Below, piece by piece: positions 1-34,566 of a DNA stretch of 64,000 nucleotides. The notes beneath the pieces are model-generated. The model saw nothing but the letters and a program-made list of their open reading frames with translations, had not been told where the DNA came from and made no database searches. The position numbers were made by a program, and so were the translations under genes. This DNA comes from Hirudinaria manillensis (Eukaryota; Annelida; Clitellata; Hirudinida; Hirudinidae), in NCBI GenBank assembly GCA_034509925.1, contig CM067535.1, positions 5,001-69,000 of the forward strand. The letters run 5' to 3'. The number at the start of each line of letters is the position of its first letter. Position 1 is the first letter of the stretch.

Positions 1-313
1 GATAAAAAAGAATTTAAGAACAAAAGTGAAAAAAGCAATTAAAAAATTACGCTAAGAAATACCATTAAATTGCAACGCATAAAATGGTATCGAAGCAAAA
101 TAGAAGCAAGCACGTGTGTTTTGAACAAAACACTGATAACCACTAAGAAATATCTTAGGATTATCAAGCGACAAAAATACGAATACTTCAACAGACAAAA
201 TACAAGGCAAAATACCGTTAATACGATTAAACTCACTAGGCCCTCGGCAGTTCTGCCCTCTAAGGTGAGCGAATAAGCGAAAAACGTAAAGATCGAAAAG
301 CGGAAAATATTGT

Positions 314-350
314 CCTTATATAGCCGAGGAAGGTCCAGTGTTGACCAATA
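314..350 (-). promoter_or_regulatory. Pol II promoter in the element 3' region (copy 1)
   Basis: On the minus strand an inverted CCAAT box (ATTGG) lies 22 nt before the TATA box TATATAAGG. The same 37-nt arrangement occurs in all seven units that include this region. It lies in the 3' part of the element, so its transcript would leave through the 3' tip and enter the next unit. Transcription start is predicted about 30 nt downstream. Confidence 0.65.
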
Positions 351-533
351 GGAGACTCCTGAGCGGCGGTGGGAGCACTGCTTCCCCTGTCCTTTGAAGT
401 GTTCATGCTGGCTAGCTTCTCTCTCCTCTAGAGGGGAGGTGGTGTCCTAGGAACTAGTTAATTAGTTATGCAGGCGTGACTCATTACATCGAGTTCAGGC
501 CAGTCATTGTGTAATGCATCCTTGGCCTAGAAC

Positions 534-2191
534 TAGGCGGTAAGATGGCTACGTTCCTTCGGACAGAAGTAACTTCCTTTTTCGAACGCCAAGATGACGG
601 TGAGGTTCCTGAAGAGTTCATCCCTGGGGTGAACATTCCTGATGCTATCTTCTGTTGTTGTCTCCTGTCGTTCCCAGTGGTTTTTACCCAAAGGAACTAT
701 AACGGGTAAGACTTTAAAATACTACTTAGACGATCGTCAGAAGCATTTGTAATTTCTATGAGAATACTTCTCAAAGTTAGGTGATTGTACAGTGGCGAAA
801 TATCTTTGTCGATAAGTTCAATAGAATTTTCTAAGTAATATTCATTCTTAGAAGGTGATCTAATGAAACTATTGATTTCTGAGATAGCTGGATACCCAAA
901 CATATAATTTTGGGTGGCATGATTCAGCATTTTTTATAAGGAAAGAAATCTCTAATTAATCTCCTTCTTTATTAAGAAATGTATTCGTATCAAGAATTAT
1001 CAAGTTCACGGAAACCCGTTACATCCAAAAGATAATTATTGTCATAATATACTCCAAATTTTTTGAAAATTAATTTTTCAAAAATACAGAAATTTATTCT
1101 TAAAAAATTAAATTTTAAAAATAAATTCTTTTGTTTTATTCTAATAGATTCCTCAAAGTTACGCGGCCTCGAATGATCCGTTCCAATTATCGTTCTTGGT
1201 ATATCTAACGATAATATGACGTTGAGGTTCCCGACGAATTCCGTCATAGGAGACAAATCATCAATTATCCTCCTGGTTAATCGAAGAGAGTTATGAATGG
1301 TAAGAATTTCTTATATTCGAAAAAAAATGTCTTGACGATCGTCACAGGCATAGTGATTGTAACTTAGTGGAGTATATAAGGGGAGTATTCAGTCGACCAA
1401 GAAAATCTTTTTAAGATAATCTTTATATCGAATGAGATGTGAATTGATACAACCACTTTTATTGGTTAGCATGATTCAGCATTTTTTCAATAAGAAATCT
1501 CTTATTGGAAATCTCAGAAAAGATAATTATTGTCATAATATACTCCAAATTTATTGAAAATTATTTTTCAAAAATTTATTATACAAAAATTTATTCTTAA
1601 AAAATTAATTTTTAAAAATAAATTCTTTTGTTTTATCCTTGTAGATTCCTCAAAGTTACGCGGTCTCGAATGATCCGTTCCAATTATCGTTCTTTGTATA
1701 TCTAACGATAATATGACGTTGAGGTTCCCGACGAATTCCGTCATAGGAGACAAATCATCAATTATCCTCCTGGTTTATCGAAGAGAGTTATGAATGGTAA
1801 GAATTTCTTATATTCGAAAAAAATGTCTTGACGATCGTCACAGGCATAGTGATTGTAACTTAGTGGAGTATATAAGGGGAGTATTCAGTCGACAAAGAAA
1901 ATCTTTTTAAGATAATCTTTATATCGAATGAGATGTGAATTGATACAACCACTTTTATTGGTTTAGCATGATTCAGCATTTTTTCAATAAGAAATCTCTT
2001 ATTGGAAATCTCAGAAGTGTTATTTAGTTGATATTAGCGTACAAAAGATAATTTTTATAATTATTCTGCTCACCATGTGTACAAATAATTCCTTTTCTTA
2101 AAAATCAATTATGATTTTCATTCGGTACAGGCTACAAGAGGTTTAGCATCATCGAGATGGATGTCCAGAATATCATCAAGAGTCCATTCGT
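534..2191 (-). repeat. Decayed tandem copies of the ORF2 3' end (copy 1)
   Basis: Downstream of the ORF2 stop the element holds three further degenerate versions of the last 350-400 nt of ORF2, spaced about 500 nt. Each carries recognisable echoes of the ORF2 tail: a GCTGAATCATGC-type start, a CATTCGATATAAAGATTATCTT segment in two of them, and a GACGATCGTC motif. The most distal version (about 534-930) still reads RSPSKNEYYLENSIELIDKD, parallel to RLSSKNEYFLKTSNELIHKQ in ORF2. All are broken by stops and frameshifts, so they act as 3' untranslated sequence. Confidence 0.75.
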
Positions 2192-3961
2192 TCAGAAGAA
2201 TTTCGAGAGGAGATTACTTCCTTTTTCGAAGGCTGAGACGATCGTGAAGTTTCTGAAGAAATCATCTTCGGAGAGAACTCTTCTAACGCTGTTTACTGCC
2301 TTCCTCGAGGTTTCACCAAAAGGAATTACAAAAGGTAAGATTTTCTTATCTTTATTTTTACTTGGACGATCATCCGAAGCATTCGCTACTTCTCTGAGAA
2401 TTTTTCTCATAGTTTGGCGATTGTAACCCAGCGAAATTTGTTTGTGGATAAGCTCATTAGAGGTTTTAAGGAAGTATTCATTCTTAGAAGATAATCTTTT
2501 ATATCGAATGAATTGTGATTTAACAATACCACCAAAAGTATGTTTTGGGTGGCATGAGTCCGGGTTTAAAAGAAGTCTATTGTTAGTCTCCTTAAAAAAC
2601 ACCTTTGTACCAATGGAGTTATCTGGTTCGCGGAATACCGTTACATCCAGAAAATTGATTGCGTTTTTATCGCATTGTAATTCAATTTTAATGTCCGTTA
2701 TTACATTGTTCATTGCAGATTCCAGAAGAGTAGCATCATCCGATGAACCCTTCCAGATCATGAAAATATCATCCAGATACCTAAGGTAGATTTTGGGTTT
2801 TAATTGATAATTTAGAACTAAATTATCTAACGCTCTTAAGTAGAGGTTGGCTAAACCCGGTGAGTACTTTTTACCCATGGCACAACCACAAACTTGGAGG
2901 AAATAATCACCATTAAATTCAAAATCATTTCTTTTCAAGGTGAATTCGAGCAGATCGATGATCAAAGAATCAGGGCGGTTACCGACCGGGTGCTTGTTAA
3001 ACCAACGTTTAATGACAGCAACCGTTCTATTCAAATTCATATTGGTGTATAACGAACTAACGTCACCCGTTATAAAAATGTCATTATCATCCAAATGAAT
3101 CCCTTTAATCTTTTGAATAAAATCGAAGCTATCCCTCACATAAGAGGGAAGGTGTTGTGCGTATTTATTGATATGGTAATCAATAAATTGAGCAATACGT
3201 GACGATTCCGTTTTGATATCGGAAACTATCGGTCGACCGGGTGGGCAATTAGGATCAAACCATTTACTCTTCGGTTTATGAACCTTAGGTAAAAAGTAGA
3301 ATTTTCTACTATTAAACGGTCTTGGGCCCGTAAGAAATTTAAACAATTTCGAACTAATTTGGTGTGTATCCAAGGCATTTTTCAATTTTTGTTCCAATAG
3401 TCGAGCGTTTTCTGGTTGTATTGACTTTGTCAATTTAACGTAGAATTTCGTATCATTTAATTGCCGAATTGCCTCATCGAGGTATTTCTGTTTATCAAGG
3501 ATTACAAAGGACGAACCTTTATCGGCCTTACGAATAGTAATTGACTTGTTATTAGCAATTTTATTGATACTTGCGTAATCAGAAAACCCATGTGTGATTT
3601 CGTTCAAAGTTCGAAAGGACGTCCGACTAGAATCGGTAGCATCTCTTACAATAAAATTATTCATTGTTTGGTAGAACTTATTTGTTACTTCATCGAGAAT
3701 TAACCTCGTGTTGTAATCAAGACATTCGAGAGGTGGTTCCCACTCACTCGGTATTCTAAAGCTATCACTTTTAGGTAAATCACTTTTGAAAAACGCTTTT
3801 AATTTTAGCGTTCTAATAAAACGTTTAATAGCTTCATGGATTCTTTGTGAATTCACTTTACTATAACACGGAACAAAGTAAATGCCCTTCTGTAAGACAT
3901 TCAATTCTTTATTGTTAAACACAAAGTTAGAAAGGTTGAATGTCCTATTATCTGGATCCAG
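2192..3961 (-). CDS. PLE reverse transcriptase (ORF2), copy 1
   Basis: This frame follows directly from the ORF1 TGA (3964-3962) with no stop and no ATG until 99 codons later. Counting from the GTG at 3922, the visible PLE motifs are ADKGSSFVILD (133-143), FYFLPKVHKP (208-217), GRPIVS (229-234), motif A GDVSSLYTNM with Asp287, motif B CGCAMGKKYSPGLANLYL (345-362), motif C YLDD (382-385), and the PLE-typical tail HPKHTFGGIVKSQFIRYKRL (458-477). The protein ends about 100 residues later with no GIY-YIG endonuclease, so priming probably uses an existing 3' end such as a telomere overhang. PLE reverse transcriptases are the retroelement enzymes closest to telomerase (established knowledge). The lack of an initiator suggests expression by stop-codon readthrough of ORF1, or by splicing. 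Confidence 0.88.
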   Translation of the reverse strand: MDPDNRTFNLSNFVFNNKELNVLQKGIYFVPCYSKVNSQRIHEAIKRFIRTLKLKAFFKSDLPKSDSFRIPSEWEPPLECLDYNTRLILDEVTNKFYQTMNNFIVRDATDSSRTSFRTLNEITHGFSDYASINKIANNKSITIRKADKGSSFVILDKQKYLDEAIRQLNDTKFYVKLTKSIQPENARLLEQKLKNALDTHQISSKLFKFLTGPRPFNSRKFYFLPKVHKPKSKWFDPNCPPGRPIVSDIKTESSRIAQFIDYHINKYAQHLPSYVRDSFDFIQKIKGIHLDDNDIFITGDVSSLYTNMNLNRTVAVIKRWFNKHPVGNRPDSLIIDLLEFTLKRNDFEFNGDYFLQVCGCAMGKKYSPGLANLYLRALDNLVLNYQLKPKIYLRYLDDIFMIWKGSSDDATLLESAMNNVITDIKIELQCDKNAINFLDVTVFREPDNSIGTKVFFKETNNRLLLNPDSCHPKHTFGGIVKSQFIRYKRLSSKNEYFLKTSNELIHKQISLGYNRQTMRKILREVANASDDRPSKNKDKKILPFVIPFGETSRKAVNSVRRVLSEDDFFRNFTIVSAFEKGSNLLSKFF

Positions 3962-5440
3962 TCACCGTAGGGAGCGAGGCTCATCTCTTACGAGTCCTCT
4001 TGTTACTTTCCACCAGGGTTCCTGTGAAAAGAGTTCATTGAAGGTCAATTTCAGTCTAGAAACTCTAAGTTTATAGCCCACACAAACAAAACTATCGGAT
4101 ACCATAGATTTGCTTATATGGATGGCCCAATCACGTAGCTCAATAATCGAATATTGTGAGGGGATCCTCTCACAACATTTTAAAGAATTATGGATTTCTG
4201 GGTTGATTTTCCCATTCAGGAAAGCCCACTCAGAATCCCGGTTTACCCCAAATGCTACTTTAAGTAGGCTGAGGACGACGTCGGCAATCACCGATACCGT
4301 GGAAAACCTCTTTAGTTTCACAGTACTAATACCATGGATTAAGCACAAACCTGTGTTAGGAGGACCACTGGGAACCCTGGTGGTCCTCGTGTTCATTTCC
4401 TCATTGGTTGGTACGATAGTAGGTCCGACGGTTGGTACGATAGTAGGTCCGACGGTTGGTTCGACGGTTGGTTCGATGGTTGGTCCGAGGGTAGGTCTGT
4501 TTGGGGAAGGGATGGAAAGGGATTCCATTTCCTTCTCCAAGGAGTCGTCGAGTAAGCTCGGATCAAATGGGGGAGACAGGGGGCGGGCAGGGGTACTAGT
4601 GGATGGAATTGGGGGAGGCACCTCCACGGATTCCAAGAAAGGTATAGTGGTTTCCCTGCTAACCTTAACCTCAGGTCCACGAATCCTGCGTTTTTTTGCA
4701 GGAGCGACCTGTGCAGGGGTATCCTCAGCAGGTCGTTTTTCACCCAAGAGAGATCTCCAGGCTGTGAGAGCCTGGGGAATTTCTAAATAAGAAGTATGTT
4801 TGCACGGAGAATCCTCCAGTACAAAATCAAAGATGGATTTCTCCATTTCATTGAACCTCTCATTATCCCAGCTGTCATGCTTCTTACTGACTTTCTTATA
4901 GGAGAACGCCTGCATCAGAATTTCTTCATCCACAGTCACTCCACTATTAAGGACCGCCCGTAATTCGCAGACAGACTGGTTGTGCTTGTTTAGCACAAAC
5001 GCTAGATTCGTGTCGAACATTATGTTCGCCATAACTCTAGCCGCCTCCTCACGCACTCTGATATATTCCTCATCGAATCCCGGGACCTTGGGACCGAAGG
5101 TAGAGGTCATTGTCTCCACGGTCTTGGAGAACTCCACAGACCTCCCGTTGTCCATGTAAAACCGGTACTGGATGATCCGGAAGATGATGTCCCCGATCTT
5201 CCGGTGCAATTCCCAAGTTTTAGGCTCGTGCTCCTTATGTTTCGGGAAAACCCGAACAGAAGGAGCAGGTGTAATCTTGGCAGAAGCCGCAACAGTAGGA
5301 GGTTGGACCAGATCTGGTCTCCTCCTTTGCGGCACTGCTTTACCATTGGTACGTCCCTTGTAAGGGAAATACTTCCTTGTACCCACATCTCTGGTCATTG
5401 GTTGACCCTTCAAGTTCCCTCTTTCATTGCCACGATTCAT
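3962..5440 (-). CDS. PLE ORF1 protein, intact copy (492 aa)
   Basis: The 492-residue protein starts at an ATG 39 nt inside the element's 5' tip. I recognise no enzyme domain. The N-terminus (about 1-70) is basic and proline-rich. A predicted helical region follows (about 75-235), including TWELHRKIGDIIFRIIQYRF near 75-94. A nuclear-localisation-like cluster AKKRRIR lies near 248-254, then a low-complexity Pro/Ser/Thr linker (270-345) with GPTIVPTV-type repeats at 319-345. The C-terminal block (365-492) is well conserved in copies 2 and 3. ORF1 proteins of retroelements often bind RNA or deliver the particle to its target, so a nuclear or telomere-directed role is inferred, not shown. The frame ends in TGA and continues in the same frame into ORF2, so this may be the N-terminal part of a readthrough polyprotein. 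Confidence 0.8.
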   Translation of the reverse strand: MNRGNERGNLKGQPMTRDVGTRKYFPYKGRTNGKAVPQRRRPDLVQPPTVAASAKITPAPSVRVFPKHKEHEPKTWELHRKIGDIIFRIIQYRFYMDNGRSVEFSKTVETMTSTFGPKVPGFDEEYIRVREEAARVMANIMFDTNLAFVLNKHNQSVCELRAVLNSGVTVDEEILMQAFSYKKVSKKHDSWDNERFNEMEKSIFDFVLEDSPCKHTSYLEIPQALTAWRSLLGEKRPAEDTPAQVAPAKKRRIRGPEVKVSRETTIPFLESVEVPPPIPSTSTPARPLSPPFDPSLLDDSLEKEMESLSIPSPNRPTLGPTIEPTVEPTVGPTIVPTVGPTIVPTNEEMNTRTTRVPSGPPNTGLCLIHGISTVKLKRFSTVSVIADVVLSLLKVAFGVNRDSEWAFLNGKINPEIHNSLKCCERIPSQYSIIELRDWAIHISKSMVSDSFVCVGYKLRVSRLKLTFNELFSQEPWWKVTRGLVRDEPRSLR

Positions 5441-5479
5441 TTTTTGTAGATAAATCTAATAACAAAGATGGTATTAGGC

Positions 5480-5920
5480 AGGGTTAGGGTTAGAATAGAA
5501 AATATAAATAAAACTGCACTTCCACTTTCTTTGTTAGTAGACAATCTAGCAAATTATGTATCGTGGTCGTCAAAAACACACAATATAAGTCTAACTAAAT
5601 TAACAATGCATCAAGAGACAATATATCGGCAATTGATGATATAAACTGGCATTAAAGTTAATGGGAACCCATAAAAATAAGAGCCAGATATGGACAGAAT
5701 GTTTAACTACAACGCCAAGAATTGCTAAGCAAGCTTGGAATTAAAGTAGTATTCGAGAGTCGTATGTTCTCAAAAAATTCTTAAAACGTGTTTATCGTAG
5801 AAAGAACCTAAGGAGAAAATAACGAAACCGATTGCAAATTCACTTAATAAATAATTAATTACCCGTCGAAGCACGTTTTTTTTAAAAAAAACTATTAGAT
5901 TAATAAGGGATGATAAATCA
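5480..5920 (-). mobile_element. 3' end fragment of an upstream PLE, minus orientation
   Basis: This matches, in reverse complement, the last roughly 430 nt of the autonomous element (compare 7330-7770 and 27270-27707). Its 3' terminus ends in two telomeric repeats (5480-5493) and then meets the 5' tip of copy 1. It is therefore the 5'-truncated upstream member of a head-to-tail tandem. It is cut off at 5915-5920, where the orientation of the whole region flips. Confidence 0.8.
5915..5920. other. Head-to-head junction with 6-bp microhomology
   Basis: Left of here the elements are minus-sense; right of here they are plus-sense. The sequence matches the minus-strand element up to AAATCA and matches the plus-strand element (compare 19590-19620) from AAATCA onward, so the two fragments share six bases. 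The minus-strand side ends within GATGATTTATCATC, an inverted repeat with a two-base loop. Confidence 0.8.
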
Positions 5921-7770
5921 ATAGTTTCATTAGATCACCTTCTAAGAATGAATATTACTTAGAAAATTCTATTGAACTTATCGACAAAGATATTTCGCCA
6001 CTGTACAATCACCTAACTTTGAGAAGTATTCTCATAGAAATTACAAATGCTTCTGACGATCGTCTAAGTAGTATTTTAAAGTCTTACCCGTTATAGTTCC
6101 TTTGGGTAAAAACCACTGGGAACGACAGGAGACAACAACAGAAGATAGCATCAGGAATGTTCACCCCAGGGATGAACTCTTCAGGAACCTCACCGTCATC
6201 TTGGCGTTCGAAAAAGGAAGTTACTTCTGTCCGAAGGAACGTAGCCATCTTACCGCCTAGTTCTAGGCCAAGGATGCATTACACAATGACTGGCCTGAAC
6301 TCGATGTAATGAGTCACGCCTGCATAACTAATTAACTAGTTCCTAGGACACCACCTCCCCTCTAGAGGAGAGAGAAGCTAGCCAGCATGAACACTTCAAA
6401 GGACAGGGGAAGCAGTGCTCCCACCGCCGCTCAGGAGTCTCCTATTGGTCAACACTGGACCTTCCTCGGCTATATAAGGACAATATTTTCCGCTTTTCGA
6501 TCTTTACGTTTTTCGCTTATTCGCTCACCTTAGAGGGCAGAACTGCCGAGGGCCTAGTGAGTTTAATCGTATTAACGGTATTTTGCCTTGTATTTTGTCT
6601 GTTGAAGTATTCGTATTTTTGTCGCTTGATAATCCTAAGATATTTCTTAGTGGTTATCAGTGTTTTGTTCAAAACACACGTGCTTGCTTCTATTTTGCTT
6701 CGATTCCATTTTATGCGTTGCAATTTAATGGTATTTCTTAGCGTAATTTTTTAATTGCTTTTTTCACTTTTGTTCTTAAATTCTTTTTTATCGTGAAATA
6801 CGCTTTAGAATTTTGTAGAACTTTTATATAATATATAATATATATTATATATTTCGGTATAGCTTTGATACTTGTAATGCGAAGCATTTCCTGGTATTTT
6901 TTAGCATTTTAATATACCTCGCTCGTCATTCTCAAAAATCTTTAACGTTAAATACGTTTTTAGATTTTTTTTGAAAAACGCACGTTATAAACTATTTTAT
7001 TTTAATTTATTGTATTTTTGGTTTTTAAAAAATTTTTTTTGGGTTCCCAATAATTTTTTTTACCAAATAAATAACCTTTTTCTTTGGTTTCTTCAAGGGC
7101 TGAGATTTCATCTCTTGTTGTTACACTAATTTATCGTTCATTGATGAATTCGTTGTAAAACTACTAAGTTAATTTAATTGCATCTTTGGTTTTAATTTTT
7201 GGGTTCCCAATAATTTTTTTACCAAATAAACAACTTATTTCTGTGGTTTTTCCAAGGGCTGAGATTTCATCTCTTGTTGTTACACTAATTTATCGTTCAT
7301 TGATGAATTCGTGGTAAAACTACTAAGTTAATTTGTTGTTTTGGGCGATGATTTATCATCCCTTATTAATCTAATAGTTTTTTTAAAAAAAACGTGCTTC
7401 GACGGGTAATTATTTATTAAGTGAATTTGCAATCGGTTTCGTTATTTTCTCCTTAGGTTCTTTCTACGATAAACACGTTTTAAGAATTTTTTGAGAACAT
7501 ACGACTCTCGAATACTACTTTAATTCCAAGCTTGCTTAGCAATTCTTGGCGTTGTAGTTAAACATTCTGTCCATATCTGGCTCTTATTTTTATGGGTTCC
7601 CATTAACTTTAATGCCAGTTTATATCATCAATTGCCGATATATTGTCTCTTGATGCATTGTTAATTTAGTTAGACTTATATTGTGTGTTTTTGACGACCA
7701 CGATACATAATTTGCTAGATTGTCTACTAACAAAGAAAGTGGAAGTGCAGTTTTATTTATATTTTCTATT
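5921..7770 (+). mobile_element. 5'-truncated PLE 3' fragment, plus orientation
   Basis: This corresponds to the last 1.85 kb of the autonomous element. It begins inside the most distal decayed ORF2-tail copy, which ends near 6260. Then follow the promoter block, an AT palindrome near 6828-6851, two tandem repeats of about 190 bp (near 7030-7330, each with GGGTTCCCAATAATTTTTTT and a CATCTCTTGTTGTTACAC block), and the terminal segment ending CTATTCTAACCC. It runs straight into telomeric array 1. It has no reverse transcriptase of its own. Confidence 0.85.
6443..6479 (+). promoter_or_regulatory. Pol II promoter in PLE 3' fragment
   Basis: Inverted CCAAT box at 6443 and TATATAAGG at 6471-6479, with the same spacing as in the other units. 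Just downstream, GGCCTAGTGAGTTT (about 6550) resembles a splice donor and could start a leader intron. Confidence 0.65.
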
Positions 7771-8227
7771 CTAACCCTAACCCTAACCCTAACCCTAACC
7801 CTAACCCTAACCCTAACCCTAACCCTAACCCTAACCCTAACCCTAACCCTAACCTAACCCTAACCCTAACCCTAACCCTAACCCTAACCCTAACCCTAAC
7901 CCTAACCCTAACCCTAACCCTAACCCTAACCCTAACCCTAACCCTAACCCTAACCCTAACCCTAACCCTAACCCTAACCCTAACCCTAACCCTAACCCTA
8001 ACCCTAACCCTAACCCTAACCCTAACCCTAACCCTAACCCTAACCCTAACCCTAACCCTAACCCTAACCCTAACCCTAACCCTAACCCTAACCCTAACCC
8101 TAACCCTAACCCTAACCCTAACCCTAACCCTAACCCTAACCCTAACCCTAACCCTAACCCTAACCCTAACCCTAACCCTAACCCTAACCCTAACCCTAAC
8201 CCTAACCCTAACCCTAACCCTAACCCT
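7771..8227 (+). repeat. Telomeric array 1, (CCCTAA)n
   Basis: About 76 CCCTAA units, almost perfect, with one CCTAA variant near 7851. The strand is that of a left-hand chromosome end. On the left it joins a complete PLE 3' terminus; on the right it joins the interior of a short-element minisatellite, so the right neighbour is 5'-truncated. Confidence 0.97.
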
Positions 8228-9548
8228 TTTATTACCAGAAATCGTCAACGTTTTATACGTTTGATAGATTTTTTTAAAAATAGAAAGCGCTTATTTTAAT
8301 TGCATTCTGGTTTTAATTTTATTTGGGTTTCCAATAATTTTATTACCAGAAATCGTCAACGTTTAATACGTTTTGATATATTTTTTTAAAATAAAAAGCG
8401 CTTATTTTTATTTTTATTTATTTCATTGCATTCTGTTTTTAATTTTATTTGGGTTTCCAATAATTTTATTACCAGAAATCGTCAATGTTTAATACGTTTT
8501 GATAGATTTTTTAAAAAATAAAAAGCGCTTATTTTAATTGCATTCTGGTTGTAATTCACAACTTTGTCATTGCATTCTGGTTTTAATTTTATTTGGGTTT
8601 CCAATAATTTTATTACCAGAAATCGTCAACGTTTAATACGTTCTGATAGATTTTTTAAAAATAAAAAGCGCTTATTTTAATTGCATTCTGGTTTTAATTT
8701 TATTTGGGTTTCCAATAATTTTATTACCAATTTTGCAACTAAAAATCGTCAACGTTTAATACGTTTTGATATATTTTTTAAAAACAAAAAACGCTTATTT
8801 TAATTTATTTTAATTTATTTTATTGCACTCTGGTTTTAATTTTATTTGGGTTTCCATTAATTTTATTACCAGAAATCGTCAACGTTTTATACGTTTGATA
8901 GATTTTTTTAAAAATAAAAAGCGCTTATTTTAATTGCATTCTGGTTGTAATTTTATTTGGGTTTCCAATAATTTTATTACCAATTATACAACTAAATTCT
9001 TTGGTTTCTTTAAGAGCTGAGTTTTCATCTCTTGTTTTAACACTGATTTATCGCTCCTTGACAAATTTGTGGTAAAACTACTAGGGTAATTTGTTAGTTG
9101 TATAGCTTTAATTTATAAGTGATGATTTATCATCTCTTGCTGTCTTAATGTGCTTTGACGAGTTTTTAATAAGTGAATATGCAATCTATGTGTCATTTTT
9201 TCCAAAATTTCTTTTCACGATAAATACGTCTGAAGAATTTTTTTGGAACATACGACTCCCTGTTACTGCATTATTTCAATTCTTGCGTTGCAATTCTTGG
9301 TAGTGCAGTTAACATTTTTTGTCCTAATCTGCTTTAACTTTAATGGGTTCCCAATATCTTTAATGCCAGATATCTAACTAGTCTTATTACATTCATCAAT
9401 TGCCGACTCATGGTCTCTTGATGCATTGTGAATTTAGTTATGTTTATATTGTGTTTTTGACGAATACGGTACATAATTTGCTTGATAATCTATTGACAAG
9501 GAAAGTGGAAGTGCAGTTTTATTAATTCTCGTCTTTAACCCTAACCCT
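8228..9548 (+). mobile_element. Short non-autonomous PLE, 5'-truncated copy
   Basis: This copy begins within the AT-rich minisatellite (8228 to about 8990). It continues through the conserved 3' segment (about 8990-9535) to ATTCTCGTCTTTAACCCTAACCCT, then meets the next unit's 5' tip at 9549. The 5' tip, small ORF and promoter are missing. The 3' segment is a diverged relative of the autonomous element's tail: both share AATTTGCT...GGAAGTGCAGTTTTATT and end in telomeric repeats. Confidence 0.82.
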
Positions 9549-9586
9549 GCCTAATACCATCTTTGTTATTAGATTTATCTGCAATT

Positions 9587-9700
9587 ATGAATCAATCGAA
9601 AGGACTAGAGATGATATTCTCTAGGAACCTTTCCGTCATCTTGGCGTTCAAAAAAGGAAGTAATCTCCTTCCTAAGGGACGTAGCCATCTTGCCGCCTAG
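9587..9700 (+). CDS. 37-aa fusion ORF of the short PLE
   Basis: ATG at the same place as the ORF1 start, ending TAG after 37 codons. It starts MN like ORF1, then reads FSRNLSVILAFKKGSNLL, which resembles the very end of ORF2 (FFRNFTIVSAFEKGSNLL). It therefore looks like a deletion scar that fuses the ORF1 start in frame to the decayed ORF2 end. The same ORF recurs at 12637 and 31333. Too short for a domain call; it could be translated or merely inherited. Confidence 0.45.
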   Translation: MNQSKGLEMIFSRNLSVILAFKKGSNLLPKGRSHLAA

Positions 9701-9880
9701 TTCTGGGCCAATGATGCATTACACAATGACTGGCCTGAACTCGATGTAATGACTCACGCCTGCATAACTAATTAACTAGTTCCTAGGACACCACCTCCCC
9801 TCTAGGAGAGAGAAGCTAGCCAGCATGAACACTTCAAAGGACAGTGGAAGCAGTGCTCCCACCGCCGCTCAGGAGTCTCC

Positions 9881-9917
9881 TATTGGTCAACACTGGACCT
9901 TTCTCGGCTATATAAGG
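9881..9917 (+). promoter_or_regulatory. Pol II promoter of short PLE unit B1
   Basis: Inverted CCAAT box at 9881 and TATATAAGG at 9909-9917. The flanking block (ACTCACGCCTGCATAACTAA through CCACCGCCGCTCAGGAGTCT) is nearly identical to that of the autonomous element, so both are likely controlled alike. Confidence 0.65.
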
Positions 9918-10339
9918 ACAATATTTTCCGCTTTTCGATCTTCTCGTTTTTCGCTTATTCGCTCACCTTAGAGGGCAGAACTGCCGAGGGCCTAGTGAGT
10001 TTAATCGTATTAACGGTACTTTGCCTTGTATTTTGTCTGTTGAAGTATTCGTATTTTTGTCGCTTGATAATCCTAGGATATTCTTAGTGGTTATCAGTGT
10101 TTTGTTCAAAACACACGTGCTTGCTTCTTTTTTGCTTCGATACCATTTTTTTGCGTTGCAATTTAATGGTATTTCTTAGCATAATTTTTTAATTGCTTTT
10201 TTCACTTTTGTTCTTAAATTCTTTTATCGTTAATACGCTTTAGAATTTCATTGAACACTGAGATTATATTTTGGTGTAGCCTGGATACTAGTAATGCGTA
10301 GCATTTTCTGGTATTTTTTAGCATTCCAATACACCCCAC

Positions 10340-12636: not shown

Positions 12637-12750
12637 ATGAATCAATCGAAAGGACTAGAGATGATATTCTCTAGGAACCTTTCCGTCATCTTGGCGTTCA
12701 AAAAAGGAAGTAATCTCCTTCCTAAGGGACGTAGCCATCTTGCCGCCTAG
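12637..12750 (+). CDS. 37-aa fusion ORF of the short PLE (unit B2)
   Basis: Same 37-codon frame as at 9587. Its preservation in three units may simply reflect recent duplication. Confidence 0.42.
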   Translation: MNQSKGLEMIFSRNLSVILAFKKGSNLLPKGRSHLAA

Positions 12751-26189: not shown

Positions 26190-26371
26190 TTCTAGGCCAA
26201 GGATGCATTACACAATGACTGGCCTGAACTCGATGTAATGAGTCACGCCTGCATAACTAATTAACTAGTTCCTAGGACACCACCTCCCCTCTAGAGGAGA
26301 GAGAAGCTAGCCAGCATGAACACTTCAAAGGACAGGGGAAGCAGTGCTCCCACCGCCGCTCAGGAGTCTCC

Positions 26372-26408
26372 TATTGGTCAACACTGGACCTTCCTCGGCT
26401 ATATAAGG
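26372..26408 (+). promoter_or_regulatory. Pol II promoter in the 3' region of PLE copy 3
   Basis: Inverted CCAAT box at 26372 and TATATAAGG at 26400-26408. Here the sequence downstream leads into telomeric array 3, so any transcript would be a short RNA ending in CCCTAA repeats. Confidence 0.66.
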
Positions 26409-27707
26409 ACAATATTTTCCGCTTTTCGATCTTTACGTTTTTCGCTTATTCGCTCACCTTAGAGGGCAGAACTGCCGAGGGCCTAGTGAGTTTAATCGTA
26501 TTAACGGTATTTTGCCTTGTATTTTGTCTGTTGAAGTATTCGTATTTTTGTCGCTTGATAATCCTAAGATATTTCTTAGTGGTTATCAGTGTTTTGTTCA
26601 AAACACACGTGCTTGCTTCTATTTTGCTTCGATACCATTTTATGCGTTGCAATTTAATGGTATTTCTTAGCGTAATTTTTTAATTGCTTTTTTCACTTTT
26701 GTTCTTAAATTCTTTTTTATCGTGAAATACGCTTTAGAATTTTGTAGAACTTTTATATAATATATAATATATATTATATATTTCGGTATAGCTTTGATAC
26801 TTGTAATGCGAAGCATTTCCTGGTATTTTTTAGCATTTTAATATACCTCGCTCGTCATTCTCAAAAATCTTTAACGTTAAATACGTTTTTAGATTTTTTT
26901 TTTTGAAAAACGCACGTTATAAACTATTTTATTTTAATTTATTGTATTTTTGGTTTTTTAAAAAATTTTTTTTGGGTTCCCAATAATTTTTTTACCAAAT
27001 AAATAACCTTTTTCTTTGGTTTCTTCAAGGGCTGAGATTTCATCTCTTGTTGTTACACTAATTTATCGTTCATTGATGAATTCGTTGTAAAACTACTAAG
27101 TTAATTTAATTGCATCTTTGGTTTTAATTTTTGGGTTCCCAATAATTTTTTTTACCAAATAAACAACTTATTTCTGTGGTTTTTCCAAGGGCTGAGATTT
27201 CATCTCTTGTTGTTACACTAATTTATCGTTCATTGATGAATTCGTGGTAAAACTACTAAGTTAATTTGTTGTTTTGGGCGATGATTTATCATCCCTTATT
27301 AATCTAATAGTTTTTTTAAAAAAAACGTGCTTCGACGGGTAATTAATTATTTATTAAGTGAATTTGCAATCGGTTTCGTTATTTTCTCCTTAGGTTCTTT
27401 CTACGATAAACACGTTTTAAGAATTTTTTGAGAACATACGACTCTCGAATACTACTTTAATTCCAAGCTTGCTTAGCAATTCTTGGCGTTGTAGTTAAAC
27501 ATTCTGTCCATATCTGGCTCTTATTTTTATGGGTTCCCATTAACTTTAATGCCAGTTTATATCATCAATTGCCGATATATTGTCTCTTGATGCATTGTTA
27601 ATTTAGTTAGACTTATATTGTGTGTTTTTGACGACCACGATACATAATTTGCTAGATTGTCTACTAACAAAGAAAGTGGAAGTGCAGTTTTATTTATATT
27701 TTCTATT

Positions 27708-28174
27708 CTAACCCTAACCCTAACCCTAACCCTAACCCTAACCCTAACCCTAACCCTAACCCTAACCCTAACCCTAACCCTAACCCTAACCCTAACCCTA
27801 ACCCTAACCCTAACCCTAACCCTAACCCCTAACCCTAACCCTAACCCTAACCCTAACCCTAACCCTAACCCTAACCCTAACCCTAACCCTAACCCTAACC
27901 CTAACCCTAACCCTAACCCTAACCCTAACCCTAACCCTAACCCTAACCCTAACCCTAACCCTAACCCTAACCCTAACCCTAACCCTAACCCTAACCCTAA
28001 CCCTAACCCTAACCCTAACCCTAACCCTAACCCTAACCCTAACCCTAACCCTAACCCTAACCCTAACCCTAACCCTAACCCTAACCCTAACCCTAACCCT
28101 AACCCTAACCCTAACCCTAACCCTAACCCTAACCCTAACCCTAACCCTAACCCTAACCCTAACCCTAACCCTAA
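27708..28174 (+). repeat. Telomeric array 3, (CCCTAA)n
   Basis: About 78 units with one CCCCTAA variant near 27826. It follows the copy 3 3' terminus and ends in a short inverted PLE fragment. Confidence 0.97.
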
Positions 28175-29107
28175 AAATCTAAAAACGTATTTAACGTTAA
28201 AGATTTTTGAGAATGACGAGCGAGGTATATTAAAATGCTAAAAAATACCAGGAAATGCTTCGCATTACAAGTATCAAAGCAGGATTTTTAGATTTTTTTT
28301 GAAAAACGCACGTTATAAACTATTTTATTTTAATTTATTGTATTTTTGGTTTTTAAAAAATTTTTTTTGGGTTCCCAATAATTTTTTTACCAAATAAATA
28401 ACCTTTTTCTTTGGTTTCTTCAAGGGCTGAGATTTCATCTCTTGTTGTTACACTAATTTATCGTTCATTGATGAATTCGTTGTAAAACTACTAAGTTAAT
28501 TTAATTGCATCTTTGGTTTTAATTTTTGGGTTCCCAATAATTTTTTTACCAAATAAACAACTTATTTCTGTGGTTTTTCCAAGGGCTGAGATTTCATCTC
28601 TTGTTGTTACACTAATTTATCGTTCATTGATGAATTCGTGGTAAAACTACTAAGTTAATTTGTTGTTTTGGGCGATGATTTATCATCCCTTATTAATCTA
28701 ATAGTTTTTTTAAAAAAAACGTGCTTCGACGGGTAATTAATTATTTATTAAGTGAATTTGCAATCGGTTTCGTTATTTTCTCCTTAGGTTCTTTCTACGA
28801 TAAACACGTTTTAAGAATTTTTTGAGAACATACGACTCTCGAATACTACTTTAATTCCAAGCTTGCTTAGCAATTCTTGGCGTTGTAGTTAAACATTCTG
28901 TCCATATCTGGCTCTTATTTTTATGGGTTCCCATTAACTTTAATGCCAGTTTATATCATCAATTGCCGATATATTGTCTCTTGATGCATTGTTAATTTAG
29001 TTAGACTTATATTGTGTGTTTTTGACGACCACGATACATAATTTGCTAGGTTGTCTACTAACAAAGAAAGTGGAAGTGCAGTTTTATTTATATTTTCTAT
29101 TCTAACC
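28171..29107 (+). mobile_element. PLE 3' fragment with inverted 5' end
   Basis: Positions 28171-28279 are the reverse complement of a PLE segment equivalent to about 26795-26897 (GCGAAGCATTTCCTGG and CTCGTCATTCTC are legible in reverse). From about 28280 the element resumes in the plus direction exactly where the inverted piece began (TTTTTAGATTTTTTTTGAAAAACG). It continues to the 3' terminus TTCTATTCTAACCC at about 29106. Inversion at a truncated 5' end is a known product of target-primed reverse transcription in other retroelements (twin priming). Confidence 0.8.
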
Positions 29108-31294
29108 CCACTCGTCGTTCTTAAAAATCGTCAACGTTTAATACGTTTTGATGGATCTTTTTAAATAAGCACATATTTTAATTTATTGCATTATGGTTTT
29201 AATTTTATTTGGGTTTCCAATAATTTTATTACCAATTAAAAAGCGCTTATTTTAATTTATTTTAATTTATTTCATTGCACTCTGGTTTTAATTTTATTTG
29301 GGTTTCCAATAATTTTATTACCAATTATACAACTAGAAATCGTCAACGTTTAATACGTTTTGATAGATTTTTTAAAAATAAAAAGCGCTTATTTTACATT
29401 CTGGTTTTAATTTTATTTGGGTTTCCAATAATTTTATTACCAATGATACAACTAAAAATCGTCAACGTTTAATACGTTTTGATATTTTTTTAAAAATAAA
29501 AAGCGCTTATTTTAATTTATTTCATTGCATTCTAGTTTTAATTTTATTTGGGTTACCAATAATTTTAAAACCACAAATCCACAACGTTTAAAACGTTTCG
29601 ATAGATATTTTAAAAATAAAAAGCGCTTATTTTAATTGCATTCTGGTATTAATTTTATTTGGGATTCCAATAATTTTATTACCAATTATGCACCTAAAAA
29701 TCGTCAACGTTTAATACGTTTTGATATATTTTTTTAAAATAAAAAGCGCTTATTTTTATTTTTATTTTTATTTATTTCATTGCATTCTGTTTTTAATTTT
29801 ATTTGGGTTTCCAATAATTTTATTACCAGAAATCGTCAATGTTTAATACGTTTTGATAGATTTTTTAAAAAATAAAAAGCGCTTATTTTAATTGCATTCT
29901 GGTTGTAATTCACAACTTTGTCATTGCATTCTGGTTTTAATTTTATTGGGGTTTCCAATAATTTTATTACCAGAAATCGTCAACGTTTAATACGTTCTGA
30001 TAGATTTTTTAAAAATAAAAAGCGCTTAATTTAATTGCATTCTGGTTTTAATTTTATTTGGGTTTCCAATAATTTTATTACCAATTTTGCAACTAAAAAT
30101 CGTCAACGTTTAATACGTTTTGATATATTTTTTAAAAACAAAAAACGCTTATTTTAATTTTTATTTTTATTTATTTCATTGCATTCTGTTTTTAATTTTA
30201 TTTGGGTTTCCAATAATTTTATTACCAGAAATCGTCAATGTTTAATACGTTTTGATAGATTTTTTAAAAAATAAAAAGCGCTTATTTTAATTGCATTCTG
30301 GTTGTAATTCACAACTTTGTCATTGCATTCTGGTTTTAATTTTATTTGGGTTTCCAATAATTTTATTACCAGAAATCGTCAACGTTTAATACGTTCTGAT
30401 AGATTTTTTTAAAAAAAAAAAGCGCTTATTTTAATTGCATTCTGGTTTTAATTTTATTTGGGTTTCCAATAATTTTATTACCAATTTTGCAACTAAAAAT
30501 CGTCAACGTTTAATACGTTTTGATATATTTTTTAAAAAACAAAAAACGCTTATTTTAATTTATTTTATTGCACTCTGGTTTTAATTTTATTTGGGTTTCC
30601 AATAATTTTATTACCAGAAATCGTCAACGTTTAATACGTTTTGATAGATTTTTTTAAAAGTAAAAAGCGCTTATTTTAATTGCATTCTGGTTGTAATTTT
30701 ATTTGGGTTTCCAATAATTTTATTACCAATTATACAACTAAATTCTTTGGTTTCTTTAAGAGCTGAGTTTTCATCTCTTGTTTTAACACTGATTTATCGC
30801 TCCTTGACAAATTTGTGGTAAAACTACTAGGGTAATTTGTTAGTTGTATAGCTTTAATTTATAAGTGATGATTTATCATCTCTTGCTGTCTTAATGTGCT
30901 TTGACGAGTTTTTAATAAGTGAATATGCAATCTATGTGTCATTTTTTCCAAAATTTCTTTTCACGATAAATACGTCTGAAGAATTTTTTGGGAACATACG
31001 ACTCTCTGTTACTGCATTATTTCAATTCTTGCGTTGCAATTCTTGGTAGTGCAGTTAACATTTTTTGTCCTAATCTGCTTTAACTTTAATGGGTTCCCAA
31101 TATCTTTAATGCCAGATATCTAACTAGTCTTATTACATTCATCAATTGCCGACTCATGGTCTCTTGATGCATTGTGAATTTAGTTATGTTTATATTGTGT
31201 TTTTGACGAATACGGTACATAATTTGCTTGATAATCTTTTGACAAGGAAAGTGGAAGTGCAGTTTTATTAATTCTCGTCTTTAACCCTAACCCT
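29107..31294 (+). mobile_element. Short non-autonomous PLE, 5'-truncated unit B3
   Basis: It begins at CCCCACTCGTCGTTC, an internal position of the short element (compare about 10336), fused to the 3' terminus of the preceding PLE fragment at a shared run of C. It holds the minisatellite (about 29108-30735), the conserved 3' segment, and two telomeric repeats at 31282-31294. The tip, small ORF and promoter are missing. Confidence 0.82.
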
Positions 31295-31332
31295 GCCTAA
31301 TACCATCTTTGTTATTAGATTTATCTGCAATT

Positions 31333-31446
31333 ATGAATCAATCGAAAGGACTAGAGATGATATTCTCTAGGAACCTTTCCGTCATCTTGGCGTTCAAAAA
31401 AGGAAGTAATCTCCTTCCTAAGGGACGTAGCCATCTTGCCGCCTAG
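31333..31446 (+). CDS. 37-aa fusion ORF of the short PLE (unit B4)
   Basis: Same 37-codon frame as at 9587 and 12637, still uninterrupted although the neighbouring leader segment has diverged. Confidence 0.42.
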   Translation: MNQSKGLEMIFSRNLSVILAFKKGSNLLPKGRSHLAA

Positions 31447-31626
31447 TTCTGGGCCAATGATGCATTACACAATGGCTGGCCTGAACTCGATGTAATGACT
31501 CACGCCTGCATAACTAATTAACTAGTTCCTAGGACACCACCTCCCCTCTAGGAGAGAGAAGCTAGCCAGCATGAACACTTCAAAGGACAGTGGAAGCAGT
31601 GCTCCCACCGCCGCTCAGGAGTCTCC

Positions 31627-31663
31627 TATTGGTCAACACTGGACCTTTCTCGGCTATATAAGG
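31627..31663 (+). promoter_or_regulatory. Pol II promoter of short PLE unit B4
   Basis: Inverted CCAAT box at 31627 and TATATAAGG at 31655-31663, with unchanged spacing despite divergence downstream. Confidence 0.63.
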
Positions 31664-34258
31664 ACAATATTTTCCGCTTTTCGATCTTCTCGTTTTTCGC
31701 TTATTCGCTCACCTTAGAGGGCAGAACTGCCGAGGGCCTAGTGAGTTTAATCGTATTAACGGTATTTTGCCTTGTATTTTGTCTGTTGAAGTATTCGTAT
31801 TTTGTTCACTTGATAATCCTGGGATTTTCTCAGTGGTTATCGGTGTTTTGTTTGAAAAACACTTGCTTGCTTCTATATTGCTTCGATACCATTTCATGCG
31901 TTGCAATTTTATGGTATTTCTCTGCATAACCTTATAATTGCTTTTATTCACTTTGTTCTTAAATTCTCTTATCGTTAATACGCTTTGGAATTTCATTGAA
32001 CACTGAGATTATATTTTGGTGTAGCCTGGATACTAGTAATGCGTAGCATTTTCTGGTATTTTTTAGCATTCCAATACACCCCACTCGTCGTTCTTAAAAA
32101 TCGTCAACGTTTAATACGTTTTGATGGATCTTTTTAAATAAGCACATATTTTAATTTATTGCATTATGGTTTTAATTTTATTTGGGTTTCCAATAATTTT
32201 ATTACCAATTAAAAAGCGCTTATTTTAATTTATTTTAATTTATTTCATTGCACTCTGGTTTTAATTTTATTTGGGTTTCCAATAATTTTATTACCAATTA
32301 TACAACTAGAAATCGTCAACGTTTAATACGTTTTGATAGATTTTTTAAAAATAAAAAGCGCTTATTTTACATTCTGGTTTTAATTTTATTTGGGTTTCCA
32401 ATAATTTTATTACCAATGATACAACTAAAAATCGTCAACGTTTAATACGTTTTGATATTTTTTTAAAAATAAAAAGCGCTTATTTTAATTTATTTCATTG
32501 CATTCTAGTTTTAATTTTATTTGGGTTTCCAATAATTTTATTACCAGAAATCGTCAACGTTTAATACGTTTCGATAGATTTTTTAAAAATAAAAAGCGCT
32601 TATTTTAATTGCATTCTGGTTTTAATTTTATTTGGGTTTCCAATAATTTTATTACCAATTATGCAACTAAAAATCGTCAACGTTTAATACGTTTTGATAT
32701 ATTTTTTTAAAATAAAAAGCGCTTATTTTTATTTTTATTTTTATTTATTTCATTGCATTCTGTTTTTAATTTTATTTGGGTTTCCAATAATTTTATTACC
32801 AGAAATCGTCAATGTTTAATACGTTTTGATAGATTTTTTAAAAAATAAAAAGCGCTTATTTTAATTGCATTCTGGTTGTAATTCACAACTTTGTCATTGC
32901 ATTCTGGTTTTAATTTTATTGGGGTTTCCAATAATTTTATTACCAGAAATCGTCAACGTTTAATACGTTCTGATAGATTTTTTAAAAATAAAAAGCGCTT
33001 ATTTTAATTGCATTCTGGTTTTAATTTTATTTGGGTTTCCAATAATTTTATTACCAATTTTGCAACTAAAAATCGTCAACGTTTAATACGTTTTGATATA
33101 TTTTTTAAAAACAAAAAACGCTTATTTTAATTTTTATTTTTATTTATTTCATTGCATTCTGTTTTTAATTTTATTTGGGTTTCCAATAATTTTATTACCA
33201 GAAATCGTCAATGTTTAATACGTTTTGATAGATTTTTTAAAAAATAAAAAGCGCTTATTTTAATTGCATTCTGGTTGTAATTCACAACTTTGTCATTGCA
33301 TTCTGGTTTTAATTTTATTTGGGTTTCCAATAATTTTATTACCAGAAATCGTCAACGTTTAATACGTTCTGATAGATTTTTTTAAAAAAAAAAAAAAAGC
33401 GCTTATTTTAATTGCATTCTGGTTTTAATTTTATTTGGGTTTCCAATAATTTTATTACCAATTTTGCAACTAAAAATCGTCAACGTTTAATACGTTTTGA
33501 TATATTTTTTAAAAAACAAAAAACGCTTATTTTAATTTATTTTATTGCACTCTGGTTTTAATTTTATTTGGGTTTCCAATAATTTTATTACCAGAAATCG
33601 TCAACGTTTAATACGTTTTGATAGATTTTTTTAAAAGTAAAAAGCGCTTATTTTAATTGCATTCTGGTTGTAATTTTATTTGGGTTTCCAATAATTTTAT
33701 TACCAATTATACAACTAAATTCTTTGGTTTCTTTAAGAGCTGAGTTTTCATCTCTTGTTTTAACACTGATTTATCGCTCCTTGACAAATTTGTGGTAAAA
33801 CTACTAGGGTAATTTGTTAGTTGTATAGCTTTAATTTATAAGTGATGATTTATCATCTCTTGCTGTCTTAATGTGCTTTGACGAGTTTTTAATAAGTGAA
33901 TATGCAATCTATGTGTCATTTTTTCCAAAATTTCTTTTCACGATAAATACGTCTGAAGAATTTTTTGGGAACATACGACTCTCTGTTACTGCATTATTTC
34001 AATTCTTGCGTTGCAATTCTTGGTAGTGCAGTTAACATTTTTTGTCCTAATCTGCTTTAACTTTAATGGGTTCCCAATATCTTTAATGCCAGATATCTAA
34101 CTAGTCTTATTACATTCATCAATTGCCGACTCATGGTCTCTTGATGCATTGTGAATTTAGTTATGTTTATATTGTGTTTTTGACGAATACGGTACATAAT
34201 TTGCTTGATAATCTTTTGACAAGGAAAGTGGAAGTGCAGTTTTATTAATTCTCGTCTT

Positions 34259-34566
34259 TAACCCTAACCCTAACCCCTAACCCTAACCCTAACCCTAACC
34301 CTAACCCTAACCCTAACCCTAACCCTAACCCTAACCCTAACCCTAACCCTAACCCTAACCCTAACCCTAACCCTAACCCTAACCCTAACCTAACCCTAAC
34401 CCTAACCCTAACCCTAACCCTAACCCTAACCCTAACCCTAACCCTAACCCTAACCCCTAACCCTAACCCTAACCCTAACCCTAACCCTAACCCTAACCCT
34501 AACCCTAACCCTAACCCTAACCCTAACCCTAACCCTAACCCTAACCCTAACCCTAACCCTAACCCT
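34259..34566 (+). repeat. Telomeric array 4 (innermost), (CCCTAA)n
   Basis: About 51 units, with two CCCCTAA variants (about 34271 and 34453) and one CCTAA (about 34389), making it shorter and more degenerate than the others. To its right begins non-repetitive sequence carrying a broken gene, so this marks where the chromosome was originally capped. Confidence 0.97.

Follow-up and report, generated by a model that had tools for sequence, protein, structure and literature searches.

How is a chromosome end built in an animal that has TTAGGG repeats and a host TERT with an open reading frame, and whose tips also carry retroelements? The question is raised by a window of 64,000 nucleotides (GCA_034509925.1, CM067535.1, positions 5,001 to 69,000) found at the left end of one chromosome in the leech Hirudinaria manillensis (genome of 148.4 Mb, 13 chromosomes, 26 ends). 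A let-7-like hairpin and annelid erythrocruorin-linker genes in this genome rule out a ctenophore, which the count of 13 chromosomes had at first suggested. An earlier note on this stretch had proposed that the chromosome-end domain of such an animal contains an endonuclease (EN)-deficient Penelope-like element (PLE), and the analysis bears this out. Our overall explanation, to which we give a probability of about 0.8, is that the subtelomere has grown by alternating additions of elements and of telomere repeats. Contig bases 1 to 5000, just outside the window, are N, and the outermost sequence is hidden.

Two element families and an inverted outer part

Two families lie head to tail in the window, an autonomous A and a noncoding B. 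The complete A that we read spans 6,459 bp, and no sense-strand frame in it other than ORF1 and ORF2 reaches 150 codons; a complete B of 3,037 bp has 5' and 3' termini in common with A and is noncoding apart from one low-complexity frame of more than 60 amino acids. Neither resembles the Athena/Terminon units, which carry accessory ORFs and can reach 40 kb. Copies follow one another head to tail behind a partial 3' copy, a pLTR-like partial tandem as in PLEs, and the 3' region of A-like copies holds a degenerate ORF2 remnant (39 to 48% identity, dN/dS of 0.27 to 0.60). A conserved 3'-terminal fold was unsupported, no hammerhead core motif was found on the sense strand of A1, A4, or B2, and the Rfam hammerhead families gave no match at E values up to 5 (a search that divergent ribozymes could escape); the only three Rfam matches, all to one bacterial RNA, were far below the cutoff.

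Read inward on the plus strand, the record begins with A2 (5915-7770), which is 5' truncated with a complete 3' end and is followed by a CCCTAA array of ~76 units (7771-8227). Next come B1, 5' truncated (8227-9535), and the complete, noncoding B2 (9549-12585, 3,037 bp, with internal repeats of 119 to 144 bp) and B3 (12599-15651), joined to one another by junctions of just two repeats (9536-9548 and 12586-12598), and then an array of ~73 units (15652-16088). A3 (16088-21453), truncated inside ORF1, is joined through two repeats (21454-21466) to A4 (21467-27707), which has both ends but lacks the ORF1 ATG owing to a small 5' deletion, and an array of ~78 units follows (27708-28174). After a stretch assigned to neither family (28175-28284), an A 3' fragment (28285-29108, 99.3% identical to 6957-7777), the 5'-truncated B4 (29108-31281), a two-repeat junction (31282-31294), and the complete B5 (31295-34258) lead to the innermost array of ~51 units (34259-34566), and we found no A or B match inward of it, in 34567-64000. 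All four arrays (51 to 78 units apiece) are on the plus strand, directly 3' of a complete element 3' end, and the 12-mer CCCTAACCCTAA occurs 261 times versus 0 expected from shuffles. The earlier note had seen reverse transcriptase (RT) elements running into CCCTAA every time and at all four of these places; the arrays are indeed there, but those at 15652 and 34259 belong to the noncoding B, and the head-to-tail junctions hold only two repeats.

It had also held that the orientation is always the expected one, which is true of the arrays in the window but not of bases 1 to 5920, which are on the minus strand, opposite to the remaining plus-strand array. Here A1 (1-5479) has its 5' end at 5479, with the start GCCTAATACC, and its 3' end past the left window edge; by self-BLAST it is 99.9% identical, reversed, to 16087-20469 and 21899-26721. 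Upstream of A1 lies the 3' end fragment of a second A copy (5493-5920, minus strand), with a two-repeat spacer (5480-5492, minus strand) separating the 3' end of an outer copy from the point where A1 begins; together, 5480-5920 are 98.9% identical to 7349-7784 reversed. Based on self-BLAST and reading of the sequence, the inverted part meets the plus-strand array head to head (5'-5') at 5915-5920. There is a serious chance, somewhat short of even, that this arrangement is an assembly error and not biology, given that tips are repetitive, that several contigs stop at round-number positions, and that the first 5,000 contig bases are N. Against an error, there is no gap at 5915, the structure is not a simple foldback (the left arm is a 3' end, and the right arm is midelement), and the end C1R has a similar 5'-5' arrangement. 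Twin priming was considered for the inverted outer part and rejected, as the same element region is present in both arms.

One frame, one TGA, and a reverse transcriptase

In A1, ORF1 (492 amino acids, 3962-5440, minus strand) ends at a TGA (3962-3964) in the context CGG TGA CTG GA, and ORF2, a 589-amino-acid frame for a PLE RT (2192-3961, minus strand), continues in the same frame directly 3' of it; the corresponding TGA and ORF2 frame are at 16506-16508 and 16509-18278 in A3 and at 22757-22759 and 22760-24529 in A4. The CGG-TGA-CTG-GA context is conserved in four subfamilies, for which the search patterns required CTG after TGA, the subfamilies having first been read without patterns. The first ATG of the RT frame is at residue 100. 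Because ORF1 and ORF2 are one frame divided by a single TGA that is kept in four subfamilies, we consider it likely that they are joined by UGA readthrough, and a conserved in-frame stop of this kind would let a PLE control the ratio of ORF1 to RT. Could ORF2 be reached in some other way? Termination-reinitiation at the CTG, or a spliced or separate RNA, seems to us a rather unlikely substitute: CTG does follow TGA in every subfamily seen, and non-AUG starts and splicing may be routes to ORF2, but the base three before the CTG is T, which in that position ahead of a start codon makes a poor context, and the indels that separate the subfamilies are in frame and leave ORF1 in the same frame. A predicted hairpin 3' of the TGA keeps its inner seven pairs in four of four distinct rows, with covariation not clearly above that of shuffles, and we do not claim it.

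ORF2 matches RVT_1 (E value of 1e-7), and its best full-length matches are GIY-YIG-bearing PLE-type proteins, 38 to 41% identical over ~98% of its length. We take these EN-containing proteins to be Neptune-like by the Cys-rich stretch ahead of their GIY-YIG. A Cys-rich domain is described for Neptune in a passage of PMC3846280, and other passages there give PLE RTs and telomerase a common ancestor. The predicted fold of ORF2 (pLDDT of 89.5) has telomerase chains as its eight best PDB matches in Foldseek, at a modest TM of ~0.4 and only a little ahead of LINE-1 and group II RTs. Thus, ORF2 resembles PLEs by sequence and telomerase by predicted fold.

The absence of a GIY-YIG nuclease, also proposed earlier, held up in every search. 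A profile of 80 PLE endonucleases found none in six frames of the window (it recovered three control proteins, all of which belong to the profile), and an EN-containing PLE query gave 59 scored matches in the genome that end by residue 612 of 764, with the query's GIY-YIG motif at 670; the domain was thus found in no copy in the window and reached by none of these matches. The motif, C or N terminal, is present in 80 of the other 110 database proteins among the matches listed, and the leech ORF2, like the database proteins that share its clade, stops where a C-terminal GIY-YIG would follow or slightly beyond.

The dN/dS values of ORF2 are 0.13 to 0.21 against the copies C2:18k and C8mid and one C10 piece, and those of ORF1 are 0.06 to 0.30 in the five comparisons with an estimable dS and 0.52 in a sixth; these ratios indicate past purifying selection on both ORFs between subfamilies. 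No internal stop interrupts any of ten near-identical, full-length ORF2 frames, and the element may be currently active. For ORF1, no homologue was found (one chance match to a PT-repeat Pfam family was weak and below the cutoff), and a single-sequence model was unusable (pLDDT of 37.6).

Distribution, junctions, and proposed growth at the tip

Are such copies a property of chromosome ends, or do most lie internally without adjoining CCCTAA? Among exact chromosomal 3' ends, counted with unplaced contigs excluded, 73 of 75 are in the terminal 60 kb of a chromosome, a zone that makes up 1.06% of chromosome length. They are present on 14 of the 26 ends, the exact motif being absent from the other 12; five of the 13 left ends have no A or B match of at least 150 bp in 10 kb, and four of these five have 2,500 masked bases. 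Most of the terminal 3' ends (62/73) have the 5' end outward, as tip-primed synthesis predicts, and 11 (on C1R, C2L, C3L, and C10L, the outer 5.9 kb of the window included) are wrongly oriented. All 36 of the 3' ends that enter at least three repeats are terminal, 34 of them correctly oriented; nine of the 75 are followed by no array and no element start. On the chromosomes, whole or partial ORF2 copies of at least 98% identity are all within 49 kb of an end (15/15), and 14 are correctly oriented. Identity of ORF2 declines with distance from the tip (29 copies, Spearman coefficient of -0.65, P = 1.2e-4) in a set of 35 rows merged by hand from 76 ORF2 matches, from which the six rows of the 39 to 48% remnant were dropped and unplaced contigs excluded. 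Old, diverged pieces are also found internally, on C8, C9, C10, C2, C6, and C7. At the real tips of C4 and C11, 1.2 to 1.5 kb of CCCTAA is followed immediately by 5'-truncated B and A.

The junctions obey a rule. The loci read contain 57 arrays of at least 5 units, of which 45 have no recognized element on the centromere side; the remaining 12 have a recognizable A or B start within 40 bp, and all 12 starts are 5' truncated. Conversely, all 30 chromosomal 5' starts, found with an exact motif that demands AACCC in front, lie 36 or 38 bp past another element's 3' motif, which amounts to two repeats, and none follows a long array. A complete 5' end thus goes with exactly two repeats, and a long array goes only with a 5'-truncated element; from this pattern we infer that telomere repeats were added onto truncated 5' ends. 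Such a rule would tell element-only growth from telomerase repair.

These observations are consistent with a model in which the A RNA would terminate in element-encoded (UAACCC)n and be copied by a TERT-like, endonuclease-less RT, either ORF2 alone or an ORF1-ORF2 fusion made through UGA readthrough, that would prime on the exposed chromosomal TTAGGG 3' end. Priming at the tip means that the 3' end of a copy faces the centromere and its 5' end faces the tip. We posit that B, which shares A termini, would be copied by A's enzyme. After an early stop, or on an eroded end, telomerase would recap the tip with TTAGGG, leaving a long array ahead of the next element; where synthesis ran all the way to the element's start, two repeats would link it to the copy added next.

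Might the domain instead be an inactive subtelomeric repeat, that is, former retrotransposons spread and homogenized by break-induced replication and unequal exchange, with telomerase healing? Copies on different chromosomes are 99 to 100% identical, the 106-kb contig C18 consists of tandem 3.87-kb units, and blocks are inverted at C10L, C1R, C2L, and C3L; given the near-identity between chromosomes and the C18 units, recombination evidently multiplies elements too. As the full account, we nonetheless judge it improbable in view of the purifying selection on both ORFs between subfamilies, the ten stop-free ORF2 frames, and the fact that 3' ends are complete while 5' ends are truncated at varied points, a signature of retrotransposition. 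Such spreading may account for some of the copies alongside our main explanation. Very unlikely is EN-dependent insertion in a fixed orientation inside long TTAGGG arrays, as for TRAS/SART in silkworm, with no exposed end: blocks in the window do have CCCTAA on both flanks, and orientation is mostly fixed genome-wide, but no endonuclease was found in the six-frame window search, none of the 59 scored genome matches of the EN-containing query extends into its endonuclease region, and interior insertion predicts complete 5' ends against long arrays, which were seen in 0 of 12 recognizable cases, complete 5' ends adjoining other elements by two repeats in 30 of 30.

Relation to known telomere systems

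The leech element is in known company: it is a telomere-associated, endonuclease-deficient PLE. The earlier suggestion of a separate system is not demonstrated, since two-ORF, endonuclease-deficient, telomere-attached PLEs are already described in passages of PMC6431247; ORF2 does form a distinct clade, which may or may not nest within EN-containing PLEs, in a tree whose root has an AU P value of 0.406 and which was built from TERT, nine proteins of the clade, and 35 of the 110 further database proteins listed, with no named Athena or Coprina sequence. In a wider tree (76 PLE rows plus TERT), absence of the EN motif takes seven changes, and short proteins without the motif also occur elsewhere; because EN may sit in another exon, its absence from a database protein is weak evidence alone. 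A search with a clade profile recovered one clade protein from outside the profile (P0009, already known) and no new members, and viral contigs scanned for PLE outgroups gave no relative. PMC3846280 cites an endonuclease-deficient PLE from kuruma shrimp; we found no annelid report of a telomere-associated one in the literature. The new details are the single ORF1/ORF2 frame split by a TGA and the rule of two repeats versus long arrays.

We speculate, with the odds clearly against us, that EN was lost here independently of Athena/Coprina, so as to give the leech a second self-sustaining telomere system in which the RT is a UGA-readthrough ORF1-RT fusion, full-length cDNA ends in element-encoded TTAGGG-like repeats that prime the next copy, telomerase serves only truncated tips, and B runs on the same enzyme. 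If so, element arrays could lengthen chromosomes without telomerase. More generally, EN-free PLEs that prime from chromosome ends are a living model of the relation between telomerase and retroelements, and an annelid that combines TERT, TTAGGG, and both A and B with a layered history at 14 of its 26 chromosome ends makes this interplay readable and testable.

A close likeness is that to Athena and the Terminons of bdelloid rotifers, where the comparison is with their descriptions and not with RT sequence: passages of PMC6431247 and PMC3846280 describe an EN-less RT, two ORFs in 4 to 6 kb, 3' telomeric repeats and telomere attachment, truncated 5' ends capped with telomere repeats, and head-to-tail arrays. 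In contrast, the rotifer host repeat is TGTGGG, according to part of PMC7943196, versus TTAGGG in the leech. A 3' hammerhead is reported for Terminons and none was found in the leech elements, which differ also in their noncoding partner B and in having ORF1-TGA-ORF2 in one frame. The EN-containing Neptune-like PLEs, 38 to 41% identical in ORF2, carry the GIY-YIG that the leech element lacks. In Drosophila, HeT-A/TART/TAHRE comprise coding and noncoding partners with shared ends. Like the leech elements, they are head to tail, with the 3' end centromere-ward and 5' erosion (passages of PMC5537684), but they are non-LTR elements that replace telomerase, whereas the leech PLE coexists with TERT and TTAGGG. 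TRAS/SART of silkworm and GilT/GilM of Giardia are likewise telomere-bound retrotransposons alongside telomere repeats; unlike the leech element, they have non-LTR enzymes, and TRAS/SART use an APE endonuclease, as other passages of PMC5537684 describe.

Organization of the chromosome end

The window (C10 bases 5001-69000) is located at a left chromosome end, and the 5,000 bases tipward of it (C10 bases 1-5000) read N. The assembly holds 148.43 Mb in 23 contigs, 13 of which span 8.3-14.8 Mb (C1, 14,755,599; C6, 11,463,318; C13, 8,303,845); the main text of the Hirudinaria manillensis genome paper gives 13 chromosomes, scaffolds of 14.76 to 8.30 Mb, an N50 of 11.46 Mb and a total of 148.59 Mb in 22 scaffolds (PMC10671345). 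Of eight hits to the erythrocruorin-linker domain of annelids in this genome, seven exceed the cut-off (0/14 control genomes), and a let-7-like hairpin scores 47.5 bits, below the family cut-off of 53.5 bits; together they mark the animal as an annelid.

CCCTAA arrays start at 7771, 15652, 27708 and 34259, just as the earlier note had read them, and the stretches between arrays are occupied by two element families, the autonomous A and its partner B. A complete A, measured on the copy at the right end of C7, is 6,459 bp long and codes for ORF1 (492 aa) and, in a 589-aa frame, a reverse transcriptase (RT). A complete B measures 3,037 bp and consists mostly of 119-144-bp repeats, with nothing obvious encoded in it. 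The two families share their 5' start, GCCTAATACCATCTTTGTTATTAGATTTATC, and a 3' stretch ahead of the telomere repeats, GGAAGTGCAGTTTTATT. The long 3' region of A also contains a degenerate second RT C-terminus (window 557-1028, minus strand; ~50% identical over 62 aa), which is adjoined by the stretch common to A and B; because its 3' region combines the two, A looks like a mosaic element.

From centromere to tip on the plus strand, the order is array, B5, truncated B4, A fragment, array, A4, truncated A3, array, B3, B2, truncated B1, array and truncated A2. The direction changes at 5915, where A1 follows on the minus strand; the tip part of the window, reversed from there outward, therefore contradicts the claim that element 3' ends always enter CCCTAA in the tip-primed orientation. 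Inverted 5'-5' blocks are found near several tips (window 1-5920; C1 right end, L029 762-1982; C2 and C3 left ends) and are either genuine end fusions or inversions, or else assembly errors. Window positions 34567-64000 show no match to A or B; this subtelomere carries two adjacent, single-frame HECT-domain genes on the minus strand (55414-57924 and 59627-62143; 836 and 838 aa, 90.8% identical). Elsewhere, a subtelomeric satellite of ~450-475 bp has TTAGGG units inside its copies, those of the C13 left end (L021) and the C4 right end (L032) being ~84% alike.

Distribution, junctions and proposed growth

The exact 17-mer of the element 3' end occurs 107 times in the genome; among the 100 matches listed, 75 are on the 13 chromosomes, and 73 of these lie at most 60 kb from an end, so that copies do not sit mostly at random internal sites, the arrangement that the earlier note had named as speaking against its reading. 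Among the matches listed, the 73 terminal ones are carried by 14 of the 26 chromosome ends, 62 of them with the 5' side outward. Exact matching is biased towards young copies, and a search with the ORF2 protein (76 scored matches) is less so: chromosomal copies or pieces of at least 98% identity all lie within 49 kb of an end (15/15), and 8 of the 14 below 98% sit more than 100 kb deep. Older pieces are also internal, particularly mid-chromosome on C8 and C9, where diverged ORF1/ORF2 pieces were read at C8:5085200-5089200 (L044) and C9:5170800-5177200 (L045), the latter as tandem units of about 1.4 kb. Telomere repeats (TTAGGG) are absent from the stretches read there, and the pieces are possibly centromere satellites or old fusion points.

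What joins one element to the next? Among the matches listed, the 75 chromosomal 3' ends are followed by at least three repeats in 36 cases, by another element's 5' start in 30 and by neither in 9. Chromosomal 5' starts, located by an exact motif that demands AACCC in front, all lie at a fixed 36 or 38 bp from the 3' motif of another element (30/30), a spacing that amounts to two repeats. The loci read contain 57 arrays with five units or more, 21 of them from one satellite. A recognized element 3' end stands on the tip side of 18 arrays, never more than 5 bp from the complete end; a recognizable A or B starts on the centromere side of 12, and all 12 are 5'-truncated (one is a 49-bp fragment only). 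At the complete-looking tips of C4 and C11, terminal CCCTAA abuts truncated elements directly.

We propose a model in which the ends would grow in two ways: telomerase would repair truncated ends, and at complete ends element would join element directly. Element RNA starting inside the 3' end of an upstream element would carry CTAACCCTAACCC, and elements might in this manner make their own primer ends. A variant first repeat, TAATCC, is common to two of the array-joined ends (on C2 and C3), which suggests that the element itself is the template for first repeats. Recombination would contribute extra copies, as on C18, an unplaced 106-kb contig whose first 10 kb contain tandem units of ~1.2 kb and which has many of 3.87 kb beyond, both derived from A.

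Coding capacity and the in-frame TGA

ORF1 and ORF2 lie in one frame, split by a single TGA (window 3962-3964, minus strand; 16506-16508 and 22757-22759, plus strand). The conserved Penelope-like element (PLE) motif NLS follows within about a dozen codons, and the first ATG comes only at residue 100 of the RT frame. CGG TGA CTG GA and the frame are also conserved in three diverged subfamilies (C2:18 kb, C8 middle, C9 middle), with in-frame indels and synonymous substitutions close by. With a pattern allowing any codon, TGA stands at every junction in the sequences read (14 rows, two of which are A1, hence 13 distinct copies; five of them are tandem units on C9). A genome pattern likewise open to any codon finds 20 junction sites, with TGA in 11/11 whose letters were printed and, once the sequences read are added, in 19 of 20, the twentieth being C11:12531, whose letters were not read. 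With no early ATG in the RT frame after a single conserved TGA, UGA readthrough joining ORF1 to the RT would be the simplest reading; reinitiation at the CTG after the TGA is its rival. In open-access papers we found no report of readthrough between ORF1 and RT in a PLE.

ORF2 dN/dS is 0.13-0.21 against C2:18k, the mid-C8 copy and one C10 piece; for ORF1, five of six comparisons yield 0.06-0.30 and the remaining one 0.52. Synonymous change has reached saturation in the C11 subfamilies (pS ~0.8), where pN is 0.16-0.23. These low ratios, and a pN well under saturated pS, indicate at the sequence level that both proteins have been under selection in the past. From the near-identity of copies we infer that the elements are active at present, although homogenization could have produced it instead.

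Relationship to known elements

In a database protein search, ORF2 matches the RTs of PLEs. The GIY-YIG endonuclease (EN) is missing from ORF2, from its best nine database matches (44-61% identity) and from fragment P0092 (49%). Among the matches listed, the motif is present in 80 of the other 110 proteins, mostly C-terminal and in a few N-terminal, and was not found in 30, some of them short and possibly missing just an exon. The EN-less group forms a single clade (support 100/100), and the test does not reject a tree in which all remaining PLEs are grouped against it (p 0.406). A profile of the group ranks its own members top and EN-bearing proteins next, and gained no new member. The leech genome showed no EN-bearing relative: matches to an EN-bearing query (59 scored of 70 candidates) all end at or before residue 612 of its 764 and fall on copies or pieces of the leech element family itself. 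An AlphaFold model of ORF2 (pLDDT 89.5) has telomerase as its best PDB match, with TM-scores of ~0.4 and other RTs close behind. The host telomerase RT lies at C10:6446931 (L042; RNA-binding domain match, E 1.1e-27), in an uninterrupted frame that exceeds 1,000 aa, apparently a gene with few or no introns.

Judged by titles and abstract openings, we found no report of telomere retrotransposons in annelids or leeches, and neither "telomer" nor "Penelope" occurs in the main text of the genome paper (PMC10671345). Passages of PMC6431247 describe two-ORF, EN-deficient PLEs of 4-6 kb and telomere-attached, EN-deficient PLEs with 5' truncation and head-to-tail arrays; a passage of PMC3846280 cites an EN-deficient PLE of kuruma shrimp. 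To the earlier note the leech element looked like a separate system; since two-ORF, EN-deficient PLEs and telomere-attached ones have already been described, it is a variant within a known kind.
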